This document shows positions 26,930-58,820 of a stretch of DNA of 64,000 bases, piece after piece. Below the pieces are notes generated by a model, which had not been told where the DNA came from, made no database searches, and saw only the letters and a list, made by a program, of their open reading frames with translations. The translations under genes were made by a program, and so were the position numbers. Source of the stretch: Taibaiella koreensis (lineage in GTDB: Bacteria; Bacteroidota; Bacteroidia; Chitinophagales; Chitinophagaceae); NCBI RefSeq assembly GCF_003545715.1, contig NZ_QVNU01000008.1, positions 62,001 through 126,000 of the forward strand. The letters are read 5' to 3'. The stretch's first letter is position 1; every line of letters begins with the position of its first letter.

Positions 26930-27213
26930 TGATTCATAGCCCATCGAAAGGATAAATGGGCTGAGTGTCGCTTCGACAAGCTCAGCGACCGTCACTAACT
27001 GGTCCTTGAGCCCGTCGGAAGGACAAATGAGCTGAGTGTCGCTTCGACAAGCTCAGCGACCGTCACTAACTGGTCCTTGAGCCCGTCGGAAGGACAAATG
27101 AGATGAGTGTCGCTTCGACGGGCTCAGCGACCGTCAACCAACCGGTCCTTGAGCCCGTCGAAAGGACAAATGAGATGAGTGCCGCTTCGACAAGCTCAGC
27201 GACTGTCCGAAGA
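26930..27213. repeat. REP-like tandem array, four units of 71-72 bp
   Basis: Unit starts GGTCCTTGAGCCCGTC at 27001, 27072 and 27144, with a diverged first unit at about 26930. Each unit contains TGAGCCCGTCGAA and TTCGACAAGCTCA, which pair as a 13-base imperfect hairpin with a loop of about 22 bases. The same unit resumes after the GIY-YIG gene at 27546. Single units occur inside the elements at 13243, 25193 and 56088. Confidence 0.85.
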
Positions 27214-46119: not shown

Positions 46120-46878
46120 ATGATTATCCTCATTTTTTTTGGTGGGCTATGGTATTTATCGCTATTCTCACAAACGTTCTTTCAGCACCGTTATGCGGCA
46201 CATGCTTCCTTTAAGATGAATAAATTCTGGGAGCGTTTCTTCTTTATTTTCGCTTATATCACACAGGGATCTTCGTATATGAGTCCCAGAGCTTATGCCA
46301 TCATGCACCGGATGCACCATGCCTACACCGATACGGAAAAAGATCCGCACTCGCCCAGCTTTTCCTCCAATATCTTTACCATGATGTGGCGGACCAAAAA
46401 GATCTATGCGGGTATCGTAAAGGGAACATTCCCTGTCGAAGAGCGATTTACCAAGCATCTTCCGGAATGGCCCTGGTTTGACAAGTGGGCGAATTCGGGA
46501 TTATCCAAAGTAGTATGGGCCATAGCCTATACGACCTTCTTTGTTTTATTTGCCCCTTCACCCTGGTTCTACCTGTTATTGCCTAACGTTATATTGATGG
46601 GCGCTTTTCACGGGGCATTGATCAATTGGTTTGCTCATAAATATGGCTACATCAATTTCAAACTGAAAAATACATCCCACAACCTGATCTTTGTCGATCT
46701 TCTGATGCTTGGTGAGTCTTACCATAACAATCATCATAAGCGCCCTTCTGCCATAAATTTTGGCAACCGCTGGCATGAAATCGATCCCGTATACCCGATA
46801 ATACTCTTTCTCAAGTGGCTCGGTATAATAAAGGTGGCCAAAATGCAAACCGTAGGTATCGCACATACGGAGCATTAA
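46120..46878 (+). CDS. membrane fatty-acid desaturase (acyl-CoA/acyl-lipid delta-9 type)
   Basis: Integral membrane di-iron desaturase, 252 residues. The three histidine boxes are present: HRYAAH (about 23-28), HRMHHAY (about 63-69) and YHNNHHKRP (about 201-209). Hydrophobic segments lie at the N-terminus and around 125-165. Introduction of a double bond into membrane acyl chains is the expected role, helping fluidity at low temperature. An electron donor such as ferredoxin is not nearby. The gene is single and is followed by a bidirectional terminator. Confidence 0.92.
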   Translation: MIILIFFGGLWYLSLFSQTFFQHRYAAHASFKMNKFWERFFFIFAYITQGSSYMSPRAYAIMHRMHHAYTDTEKDPHSPSFSSNIFTMMWRTKKIYAGIVKGTFPVEERFTKHLPEWPWFDKWANSGLSKVVWAIAYTTFFVLFAPSPWFYLLLPNVILMGAFHGALINWFAHKYGYINFKLKNTSHNLIFVDLLMLGESYHNNHHKRPSAINFGNRWHEIDPVYPIILFLKWLGIIKVAKMQTVGIAHTEH

Positions 46879-46926
46879 TACCGCCCGTTGCTATAGGTTC
46901 CGGTAAATTTTGAGTTATGTAAAAAG

Positions 46927-46976
46927 AAAAGGACTGTCTCCTATGCTTGCGTAAGCATAAAGAGACAGTTTTTTTT
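46927..46976. terminator. bidirectional terminator between desaturase and lanthipeptide genes
   Basis: ACTGTCTC pairs with GAGACAGT, with an inner TATGCTT / AAGCATA stem and T-runs at both sides. Confidence 0.8.
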
Positions 46977-47005: not shown

Positions 47006-47185
47006 TCAACACATGCCTTCGCAACTTACAAAGCCGGTATTTTGCGGCGCGCAGGTCCTGTTGGTCTGGCAGCGGCTAAGTGTGCCGCCTCCGGCTACTA
47101 CCGCCTGCTGGCGCTGGTTCAATTGGGCCAATGTTTCTTTGTTCAGCGTAAGCTTTGCTTTCAGCGAAATGCCTTTCTTTTTCAT
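47006..47185 (-). CDS. class I lanthipeptide-like precursor peptide (59 aa)
   Basis: A short gene easily missed. The first part of the leader is MKKKGISLKAKLTLNKETLA, then QLNQRQQAVVAGGG; this matches the Bacteroidota class I lanthipeptide leader pattern (LxLNKETLA.L...Q..V.GG). The core after the GG site is TLSRCQTNRTCAPQNTGFVSCEGMC with four Cys (39, 45, 55, 59) and several Ser/Thr in ring-forming spacing. Cleavage would follow the double glycine. No LanB dehydratase, LanC cyclase or peptidase-transporter gene is in this window, so modification would have to occur in trans. It could otherwise be an unmodified secreted peptide. The leader match is strong; the product is inferred. Confidence 0.72.
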   Translation of the reverse strand: MKKKGISLKAKLTLNKETLAQLNQRQQAVVAGGGTLSRCQTNRTCAPQNTGFVSCEGMC

Positions 47186-47253: not shown

Positions 47254-47280
47254 GCATTGTCCGTATCAGCCGGACAATGC
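47254..47280. other. 10-bp perfect hairpin between proC and the lanthipeptide gene
   Basis: GCATTGTCCG, seven-base loop, CGGACAATGC. No T-run follows on either strand, so it is more likely an RNA-structure or protein site in the peptide gene's leader than a terminator. Confidence 0.45.
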
Positions 47281-47360
47281 CAAAGGTAGCTGGCCGATGT
47301 AAAATATAGCATACCGTCTTTCCTGTATATTGAATTACCTGCTTCGCCTGCCGCTTTGCT

Positions 47361-48161
47361 TTACATATCCGATTGGATCTTTTTATAGCTGGTCACCACG
47401 CCGCGGATAAGCGAGGAGCTGAATCCCTGATGCTCCATCTCGTTCAGGCCTGCAATGGTACAGCCCTTGGGCGTAGTTACCTTATCGATCTCCTGTTCGG
47501 GGTGGGTATTGCGCGTCAGTAGCAACTCTGCTGCGCCTTTTACTGTTTGCGCGGCGATGAGCGCAGCTGTACGTGCATCGAAGCCGATCTCGATACCACC
47601 CTGGATATTGGCCCTGATATAACGCATCGCATAGGCGGTACCACAAGCGCCAAGCACGGTGGCAGCATCCATCAGCTTCTCGTCGATAAAAACGGTCTTA
47701 CCCAGCTGTCCAAACAATGCCTGCACATAATCGACCTGCCCGTCGCTGGCGCCATCGGCGCAAATGCAGGTCATGCTTTCCCTTATCGCAATCGCGGTAT
47801 TGGGCATAGCCCTGAAGAGGCTGAAGCCCTCACCCAGCATGCCGCGCAGGTCATGAAGCCATACACCGGTCATTACGCTCACGATCACGTGGCGGCCGGG
47901 ATCCAATACGGGTTGCAATGTTGCCAGTATCTCTTTGATCTGGAAGGGCTTCACGGCAAAGATCAGCCAGCTTGCCTGCCGTACGGCGGCCAGGTTGTCG
48001 TTGGTAATGGTCACGCCTTGCCCGGCCAGGTTGGCCAGGCTCTCGGTATTGCGTTTGGTAACGATCAGCTCCCGGGCGGGTATAAAGCCGCTGCTGATGA
48101 GGCCCTCGGCTATGGCAACGCCAAGGTTGCCACCGCCGATAACGGCAACTGTAGTGCTCAT
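47361..48161 (-). CDS. proC: pyrroline-5-carboxylate reductase
   Basis: Last enzyme of proline synthesis, NAD(P)H-dependent. AVIGGGNLGVAIAEGLISSG is the nucleotide site at the N-terminus, VKPFQIKEIL and VSVMTGV mark the Rossmann domain, RAMPNTAIAI and the C-terminal dimerisation segment AQTVKGAAELLL...VTTPKGCTIAGLNEMEHQGF are diagnostic for P5CR. I start at MSTTVAVIGGG (48161), giving 266 residues; the frame upstream is non-coding. It follows an unknown gene by 32 bases on the same strand. Confidence 0.95.
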   Translation of the reverse strand: MSTTVAVIGGGNLGVAIAEGLISSGFIPARELIVTKRNTESLANLAGQGVTITNDNLAAVRQASWLIFAVKPFQIKEILATLQPVLDPGRHVIVSVMTGVWLHDLRGMLGEGFSLFRAMPNTAIAIRESMTCICADGASDGQVDYVQALFGQLGKTVFIDEKLMDAATVLGACGTAYAMRYIRANIQGGIEIGFDARTAALIAAQTVKGAAELLLTRNTHPEQEIDKVTTPKGCTIAGLNEMEHQGFSSSLIRGVVTSYKKIQSDM

Positions 48162-48193
48162 AGAAAAATAATTATCGGATAAAGTGTGTGGTG

Positions 48194-49066
48194 TTACCGC
48201 GAGAGGCCGGGCATAATGGCATTGGTAATTTCCCAGTAGCCGTTTACCCATGCCATAACGATCTTAAATGGTCCCTCGATCGTTTCTGTCTCTTTGCTTT
48301 CCAACGTGGCATCGTAGCGGATCATACCTTCGGCATAGCCCGGTCCCTGTGGCGCTCCGTCTGCTCCCAGGTCGAAGACAATATTGGTGATCTTGTAGCC
48401 CCCATTCTCAAAAGAAAGGTAAGATGCGAAGATATTGCGGATATGCGCTATGAACTGCTCTTTGGTATAAACCACGTTGTTGTCCGAAACGAATTCGTCT
48501 GCAAGAATAAAACTCTCCTCGTCCACATGCCGGTCCAGCCACATTTCCAGGAAGTCTTCGGCAATACCCTCAATCGTTAGCCGGTGATTGGGATGGAACT
48601 CTTCGTAAATGAAGTGGTTCACCATTTCGGGAATGTCAAACTGCTGGGTCTCGTGCAGGAACAGCTCTTCGGTAATGAATTTGTATTTAAGGCGCGCAGG
48701 GTAGCTGTCGCCGTAGTCCACTTCGATATTTTTGTCCCGCATAAATGTTTCCAGGCGCTCAAGCTCCTTTTCGATCTGTTCATCGTTCAGCACTGCGGCA
48801 TCCTTAAAGTCCTTTGGTTCTCCCAATATCTTATAGATGCTTACCTCTGCGACGCTGTCCAGCTGGCGCTCAAAGGCCAGGATATTGTTGAGAAAGGCAT
48901 TTTCGACCTCGGGTGGTACATCCTCCAGCCGGTGGATATCGGCGCCGGTCTCGGCCTGTAGCTTGAGCCGCAGCAATTCGTTCTCGATCCTCAGCTGTTC
49001 TTCCGGATCGTCACTGAACCGTTCCTCTTCCCCCCCAGGTTCTTTGTACTCATCGTCTGCATTCAT
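48194..49066 (-). CDS. acidic hypothetical protein (290 aa)
   Basis: Unrecognised soluble protein. It starts with a very acidic, probably coiled segment (MNADDEYKEPGGEEERFSDDPEEQLRIENELLRLKLQAETG). The middle is helical (LNDEQIEKELERLETFMRDKNIEVDYG, ARLKYKFITEELFLHET). The C-terminal ~110 residues (FILADEFVSDNNVVYTKEQFIAHIRNIFASYLSFENGGYKI...KIVMAWVNGYWEITNAIMPG) could be a small alpha+beta domain of the NTF2-like sort. It is upstream of proC by 32 bases, so an operon is likely. I start at 49066 as the next upstream ATG adds a non-acidic stretch. Confidence 0.6.
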   Translation of the reverse strand: MNADDEYKEPGGEEERFSDDPEEQLRIENELLRLKLQAETGADIHRLEDVPPEVENAFLNNILAFERQLDSVAEVSIYKILGEPKDFKDAAVLNDEQIEKELERLETFMRDKNIEVDYGDSYPARLKYKFITEELFLHETQQFDIPEMVNHFIYEEFHPNHRLTIEGIAEDFLEMWLDRHVDEESFILADEFVSDNNVVYTKEQFIAHIRNIFASYLSFENGGYKITNIVFDLGADGAPQGPGYAEGMIRYDATLESKETETIEGPFKIVMAWVNGYWEITNAIMPGLSR

Positions 49067-58184: not shown

Positions 58185-58415
58185 CATTGCTCCGTAGGAG
58201 CAACATGTCTGTAGACAAATACAAGCAACTTGCAATTGCTCCGTAGGAGCAACATGTCTGTAGACAAATACAAGCAACCTTGCAATTGCTCCGTAGGAGC
58301 AAAATGTCTGTAGACAAATACAAGCAACCTTGCCATTGCTCCGTAGGAGCAAAATGTTTGTAGACAAATACAAGCAACCTTGTAATTGCTCCGTAGGAGC
58401 AAAATGCCTGTAGCC
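58185..58415. repeat. tandem array, five units of 49-50 bp with a 17-bp palindrome
   Basis: TTGCTCCGTAGGAGCAA recurs at 58187, 58236, 58286, 58336 and 58386. The inter-palindrome sequence (TGTCTGTAGACAAATACAAG and so on) is also conserved, so it is a tandem repeat and not a CRISPR array. It lies upstream of exbD. The palindrome can form a short hairpin with a GTA-type loop. Confidence 0.88.
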
Positions 58416-58613: not shown

Positions 58614-58820
58614 CTAGCCTCCCTGGGTAATGGTGGTGATGCAGACAACAACAGACAGTACACCGATACAGATGGGCGTACGGGTGTGGCAAGCCCCGTT
58701 AGTAATGCAGGCGATGCCCAAAAAACTTTCTCCGCCTTGCACCGCTTTTTGAGCGTCTGGTTGCAGAGGAGATATGGTTGATTTCGAAAGCATCAGCTTT
58801 TTAGCAGTTTTCTTTTTCAT
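58614..58820 (-). CDS. class I lanthipeptide-like precursor peptide (68 aa)
   Basis: Start at MKKKTAKKLMLSKSTISPLQ (58820). The leader KKLMLSKSTISPLQPDAQKAVQGG follows the same class I pattern as the peptide at 47006-47185 (KKL.L.K.TI..L......V.GG). The core after the double Gly has Cys 38, 44, 51 and 60 among Thr/Ser (IACITNGACHTRTPICIG) and a hydrophobic stretch VLSVVVCITTITQGG. The GG cleavage site is residues 29-30. No dehydratase or cyclase is in the window. The frame can be extended by 16 codons upstream but the leader pattern begins here. The leader match is strong; processing is inferred. Confidence 0.72.
   Translation of the reverse strand: MKKKTAKKLMLSKSTISPLQPDAQKAVQGGESFLGIACITNGACHTRTPICIGVLSVVVCITTITQGG

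Follow-up and report, generated by a model that had tools for sequence, protein, structure and literature searches.

Class I lanthipeptide systems of the Bacteroidetes combine precursors whose leaders follow the pattern LxLxKx5L...GG with a C39 protease, a LanB and a LanC (Walker et al. 2020, PMC7268733). The survey that describes them limited the distance between a LanC-domain protein and its precursor to seven genes, so that dispersed precursor genes could not be counted in it, and it names the pinensins as the sole class I lanthipeptide isolated from the phylum. A different layout is described for the prochlorosins and synechococsins, in which one promiscuous enzyme (ProcM or SyncM) serves many precursors that can be scattered over the genome (PMC10783134, PMC9872173). 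The highest numbers of prochlorosin-type precursors per strain are given as 83 and 79, and these sets are described as hypervariable (PMC10783134).

The locus described here lies in a 64,000-nucleotide stretch of the Taibaiella koreensis genome (the window), and belongs to a gene family that resembles both kinds of system. Its leader motif, GG site, C39 protease, LanB and LanC are like those of the Bacteroidetes class I lanthipeptides as characterized in PMC7268733. With the prochlorosins it has in common many scattered precursors and few enzymes; however, prochlorosins are of class II, with leaders of the Nif11 family and one LanM, whereas the predicted T. koreensis system is of class I, with separate LanB and LanC and another leader, and comprises about 140 precursors against the 83 that PMC10783134 gives as the highest prochlorosin number, with cores that are conserved between two close species. 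The pinensins are class I lanthipeptides from the same phylum as this family; we take them to have been described from a compact gene cluster, with no dispersed library. No dispersed class I library was found among the listed titles and abstracts of the open-licence literature, including that on lanthipeptides of Taibaiella and the Chitinophagaceae. What appears to be new is the pairing of a predicted class I chemistry with the layout known from prochlorosins, on a larger scale and with each core conserved individually, the last being a statement about one close species pair (T. koreensis and its congener G001).

The window gene had been noticed in a first-pass annotation as a small open reading frame at 47006-47185. 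We find the same coordinates exactly, with an ATG start and 59 codons plus a stop; the annotation gave no strand, and the gene is read from the minus strand, the plus strand over this interval being an unrelated frame. The features of the window that are used below are as follows (NF038153 is a curated NCBI leader model):

46120-46878, plus strand: gene convergent with the window gene, presumably desaturase-like, as named from its His boxes
46921..46969, minus strand: hairpin and T-rich tail (by eye), probable terminator of the window gene
47006..47185, minus strand: precursor gene of the class I lanthipeptide type, product of 59 aa (open reading frame, NF038153 match, syntenic orthologue)
47009..47086, minus strand: core, 26 aa (residues 34-59), 4 Cys and 6 Ser/Thr (open reading frame and orthologue comparison)
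47087..47185, minus strand: leader, residues 1-33, LxLxK motif, GG at its end (NF038153 match G000:C22:109087-109185)
47254..47280, minus strand: perfect inverted repeat with a 10-bp stem, in the presumed 5' untranslated region
47281..47288, minus strand: possible -7 promoter box TACCTTTG (in the orthologue TAACTTTG), by the consensus TAnnTTTG
47361-48251, minus strand: gene on the other flank, whose product we take to resemble pyrroline-5-carboxylate reductase
58614-58820, minus strand: another precursor of this family, with 68 aa counted from its ATG and 4 core Cys (NF038153, 38 bits)

The translated peptide is MKKKGISLKAKLTLNKETLAQLNQRQQAVVAGGGTLSRCQTNRTCAPQNTGFVSCEGMC, and its core is GTLSRCQTNRTCAPQNTGFVSCEGMC. 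Its leader had been likened to those of Bacteroidota class I lanthipeptides, and the profile search proposed at the time bears this out: the independently curated NF038153 (lant_leader_L1a) matches model positions 1-32 of 32 and scores 48 bits, where its cut-off is 22. Because the leader ends in a double-Gly motif and the genome encodes a C39-peptidase exporter, cleavage would be expected after GG. The core had been credited with four Cys and several Thr/Ser and indeed holds 4 Cys and 6 Ser/Thr, the residues needed for (methyl)lanthionines. A Pfam search of the 59-aa peptide returned no family at E<=10, and with it no Nif11-type leader of the kind that marks prochlorosins proper; a search of plasmids with the peptide gave no result, and among genome contigs 598 pattern matches were returned, 0 of them confirmed. 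An orthologue with similar flanking context is present in the congener G001 (G001:C6:49131), and since it is syntenic and 81% identical, with a dN/dS of about 0.10 across the whole gene, the window gene is more than a chance reading frame. All 4 Cys and all 6 Ser/Thr of the core are conserved in this related genome, where the annotation had left Cys conservation to be looked for, as are 10 of the 16 other residues; all six core substitutions thus fall outside Cys, Ser and Thr.

The annotation had also called the gene an orphan, with no LanB, LanC or exporter nearby. As regards the enzymes this holds over the whole 190-kb contig (C22), where neither Lant_dehydr_N nor LANC_like (E<=0.001) nor Peptidase_C39 (E<=1e-4) finds a match, so that the usual clustering of a precursor with LanB and LanC, which is a matter of layout and not a chemical requirement, is absent here. 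What the annotation could not show is that the gene belongs to a dispersed set of about 140 paralogues. Used as a query, the window peptide has 69 matches in its own genome (E<=1, itself counted), and NF038153 has 124 at E<=1, with 93 above the curated cut-off and 98 at E<=0.01; nearly all of the 124 extracted matches read MKK...LxLxK...L...GG, followed by a Cys-/Thr-rich core. A profile built from 92 of these leaders (A1) gave 142 matches at E<=1, of which 135 also pass E<=1e-3, adding 18 places beyond those of NF038153, 16 of them with at least 3 Cys after residue 25; since A1 was trained on this very genome, 98 should be read as the independent count and 142 as an upper working number. An ATG start is present in 141 of the 142 precursors, a frame that stays open over 45 aa or more and includes a GG-like site likewise in 141, and at least 3 Cys after residue 25 in 137. 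They form 102 clusters (3-kb limit), 73 of them singletons, on 12 contigs, and paralogues share on average 40% identity in their leaders and 18% in their cores. The layout is thus prochlorosin-like: many scattered precursors with a common leader, diverse cores and few modifying enzymes. The distance to a LanB, a LanC or the exporter on contig C16 is no more than 10 kb for 10/142 precursors and no more than 20 kb for 14/142.

The genome search for LanB and LanC that had been suggested found both, LanB on contigs C16 and C20 and LanC on C18, C10, C19 and C2, and these, together with a C39-peptidase exporter, lie on contigs other than that of the window gene, as the earlier remark that the peptide may be modified by enzymes encoded elsewhere would require. 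Neither half of the refuting condition set in the annotation, a genome devoid of dehydratase and cyclase and core Cys that vary between related strains, applies here. On C16 a LanB carrying the Lant_dehydr_N and Lant_dehydr_C domains overlaps the gene of a C39-peptidase ABC exporter (PCAT), in which C39, membrane and ATPase domains are all present; HlyD follows, and one precursor lies upstream. The second LanB is divergent (922 aa, both dehydratase domains; L215:8703-11471, equivalent to G000:C20:115702-118470), and a search for a precursor within about 20 kb of it found none. Each of the four LanC genes lies beside one or more precursors. The motifs LAHG, WCYGD and CHG, to which we ascribe a zinc-ligand role, are present in all four, and the LANC_like matches sit in open frames of 407-448 aa; LanM proteins are longer. 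A second C39 match of the genome, on C10, sits in a frame of 164 aa. The divergent LanB on C20 adjoins a LytTR regulator gene.

We therefore regard the window gene, with a probability of roughly 0.8, as one of about 140 class I lanthipeptide precursors that are modified in trans by shared enzymes. Modification in trans is possible since the enzymes are encoded elsewhere, and it is backed by the joint occurrence of leader and LanB across genomes and by the pattern in which Cys, Ser and Thr are conserved; from these we infer that the central enzymes act on the dispersed precursors, close rings in them and export them. The common leader would bring each precursor to the LanB encoded in the LanB-PCAT-HlyD operon on C16, which would dehydrate Ser and Thr of the core; one or more of the four LanCs would then close thioether rings onto Cys, and PCAT would cut after GG and export the product with the HlyD adaptor. 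As to their role, we can only guess at secreted peptides with separate tasks, in competition with neighbours or in signalling. A further step, which we offer tentatively as doubtful but possible, is that about 140 scattered class I precursors, one LanB-PCAT operon and four LanCs make up a lanthipeptide library larger than any other with one enzyme set in the papers cited here, and that its products, in contrast to a shifting random library of the prochlorosin kind, are separately selected molecules, perhaps secreted signals in a network where every sensor is served by a ring peptide of its own; it is suggested by the fact that about a fifth of the precursors lie near LytTR two-component systems.

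That association also gives rise to a different emphasis, compatible with modification in trans, under which the precursors would be mainly pheromone-like peptide signals for the adjacent LytTR systems. Clustering of neighbouring open reading frames in 91 T. koreensis stretches (L075-L154 and L215-L225) placed a sensor-kinase-like family in 23 and a regulator-like family in 22, and a stricter search with one member per family found them in about 18 and about 17; one such kinase has Reg_prop, Y_Y_Y and His_kinase domains, one such regulator Response_reg and LytTR. At several loci the sensor-kinase-like frame lies a few hundred bases from the precursor. LytTR genes total 47 in T. koreensis, 27 in G001 and 18 in the leader-less congener G101, and 22 of the 47 have a precursor no farther than 6 kb away, where about 9 would be expected (22 was reached in 3 of 20000 rotations); in G001 this is so for 9 of the 27, with 3.8 expected. 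But a limit of 2 kb leaves a slight excess (7 where 3.3 are expected in T. koreensis, 2 where 1.4 are expected in G001), the test was picked after the neighbours had been seen, with 6 kb one of four limits tried, and 31/142 precursors have a LytTR gene within 6 kb while 111/142 do not, so that proximity to LytTR genes explains at most a part of the family. The LytTR systems may, moreover, rather control precursor expression. We consider this emphasis rather unlikely to be the right one. The window gene's own contig, C22, has no LytTR match. Further recurrent neighbours, apart from LanC and named by eye, are an ABC-ATPase-like family (7 stretches) and a Crp-like family (5 stretches).

Less likely still, and in our view improbable, is that the leader serves export only, such that PCAT would cut and export Cys-rich disulphide peptides while LanB and LanC modify just the precursors adjacent to them. 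C39 domains of ABC exporters are described as cutting double-Gly leaders (PMC6363468), 128/142 precursors stand more than 20 kb from any LanB, LanC or PCAT, and the cores are very rich in Cys (13.3% of residues). Across genomes, however, the leaders track LanB and not C39 exporters. Among 147 family genomes (LanB at E<=1e-10, leader at E<=0.001), LanB is present in 20, the leader in 10 and both in 9 (Fisher P 2e-8). The congener G101 encodes a C39 exporter, which is merely 38% identical to that of T. koreensis, and has no LanB match and 0 leaders, by NF038153 as by A1; the four genomes of the genus have 98 (T. koreensis), 71, 60 and 0 (G101) leaders by NF038153 at E<=0.01, and A1 at E<=0.05 finds 77 leaders in G001 against 0 in G101. 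The link is not absolute, given that G140, a fragmented assembly, has 3 leaders and no LanB match and that in 11 of the 20 genomes with LanB no leader reaches E<=0.001; some LanBs therefore probably serve other precursors. Of the nine genomes with both, two are of this genus and seven are not, and six of these seven have their 1-7 precursors no more than about 16 kb away from LanB, the exception being G065 (3 precursors). Two LanBs are present in the fetched stretches of G147 (inferred to be T. chishuiensis), and among 14 Bacteroidota loci picked by LanB similarity, two of them of this genus, A1 has matches in 12 (11 at E<=1e-3).

The cores themselves also speak against export alone. Between T. 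koreensis and G001 there are 62 reciprocal best core pairs, of which 8 with a score margin of <=25 were dropped and 54 kept, precursors of <=40 aa (1/142 in T. koreensis, 1/77 in G001) being excluded from the comparisons; 44 of the 54 have similar flanking DNA. Pooled dN/dS is 0.090 for cores and 0.147 for leaders, the exact core value being soft because core dS is near saturation (1.5); it could be computed singly in 41 of the 54 pairs (the others having saturated or zero dS) and is below 1 in all 41. Purifying selection on the cores is accompanied by retention of the residues that a lanthipeptide would need: 319 of 327 core Cys are kept, and 405 of 472 core Ser/Thr (85.8%) against 70.9% of other residues, an odds ratio for Ser/Thr of 2.48 (95% 1.89-3.47). 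The same ratio is 0.51 in the leaders and 0.58 in ordinary orthologues (47 control pairs restricted to 70-88% identity), which indicates that Ser and Thr are normally the less conserved. The result is similar for the 44 syntenic pairs (odds ratio 2.83; Cys kept 253/257) and for 48 pairs picked from the leader alone (2.50; 273/286). Of 141 cores, 76 have an odd and 65 an even number of Cys, odd numbers thus being as common as even ones, and 137 contain no fewer Ser/Thr than Cys; both would fit thioether rings, and full intrachain disulphide pairing predicts neither. At a larger distance the precursor set turns over, as judged from the few pairs with T. chishuiensis: comparison of 64 precursors from 32 fetched stretches (against 71 matches genome-wide) gave 12 clear pairs, with 54/66 Cys, 63/108 Ser/Thr and 151/374 other residues kept, and none of these 64 proved to be an orthologue of the window gene.

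Two further accounts can be set aside with little hesitation. Action of another maturase on these leaders, such as a TIGR04149-type radical SAM enzyme, is very improbable: the match to TIGR04149 is weak (17.1 bits against a cut-off of 25, for which membership in that RiPP group was rejected) beside the 48 bits of NF038153, and no radical-SAM-like family was seen, by eye, among 12 recurrent neighbour families. That the genes are non-functional relics, spread and decaying copies of a leader gene, as one truncated frame of the 142 (C16:155127) and the low identity of paralogous cores might hint, deserves next to no credence and was rejected, being contradicted by the selection test as well as by the 141 open frames and the syntenic pairs.

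If modification in trans by shared enzymes is the true account, class I enzymes would take their place beside ProcM and SyncM among the natural systems with many substrates, and since LanB and LanC are separate proteins, dehydration and the choice of cyclase could be examined one at a time. The roughly 140 natural substrates, many of which have orthologues at known distances, would provide a direct test of substrate discrimination by LanB and four LanCs; they also bear on the purpose of large lanthipeptide sets, the function of prochlorosins being described as still open (PMC10783134). Genome mining for class I lanthipeptides is commonly done beside the enzymes (within seven genes in PMC7268733); in this genome a limit widened to 20 kb would still catch just 14/142 of the precursors.

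Around the window gene itself, the probable terminator is possibly bidirectional, shared with the convergent desaturase-like gene, because a T-run is present on the plus side too. TAnnTTTG, which we take to be the Bacteroidota -7 promoter box consensus, shows no enrichment in front of the family's genes (a fraction of 0.213 among 141 precursors, 0.298 among 282 controls). A search for a shared promoter or operator upstream of the precursors brought out just the weak k-mers ACACCA and ACTGCA. Nor are upstream hairpins such as the inverted repeat a family feature (14/141 precursors against 39/282 control genes). The G001 orthologue has, by eye, a hairpin of other sequence at roughly the same position, which could be a conserved structure.

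The second precursor of the window (58614-58820) is missing from the first-pass annotation; its frame could also begin at an upstream TTG, and it has a syntenic orthologue at G001:C6:37681. About 200 bp from it lies a tandem array of 4.6 copies of a 50-bp unit (58186-58413), which overlaps the long alternative start of a frame that we take to be ExbD-like, and a tandem array of 3.8 copies of a 71-bp unit occupies 26938-27207 of the window.
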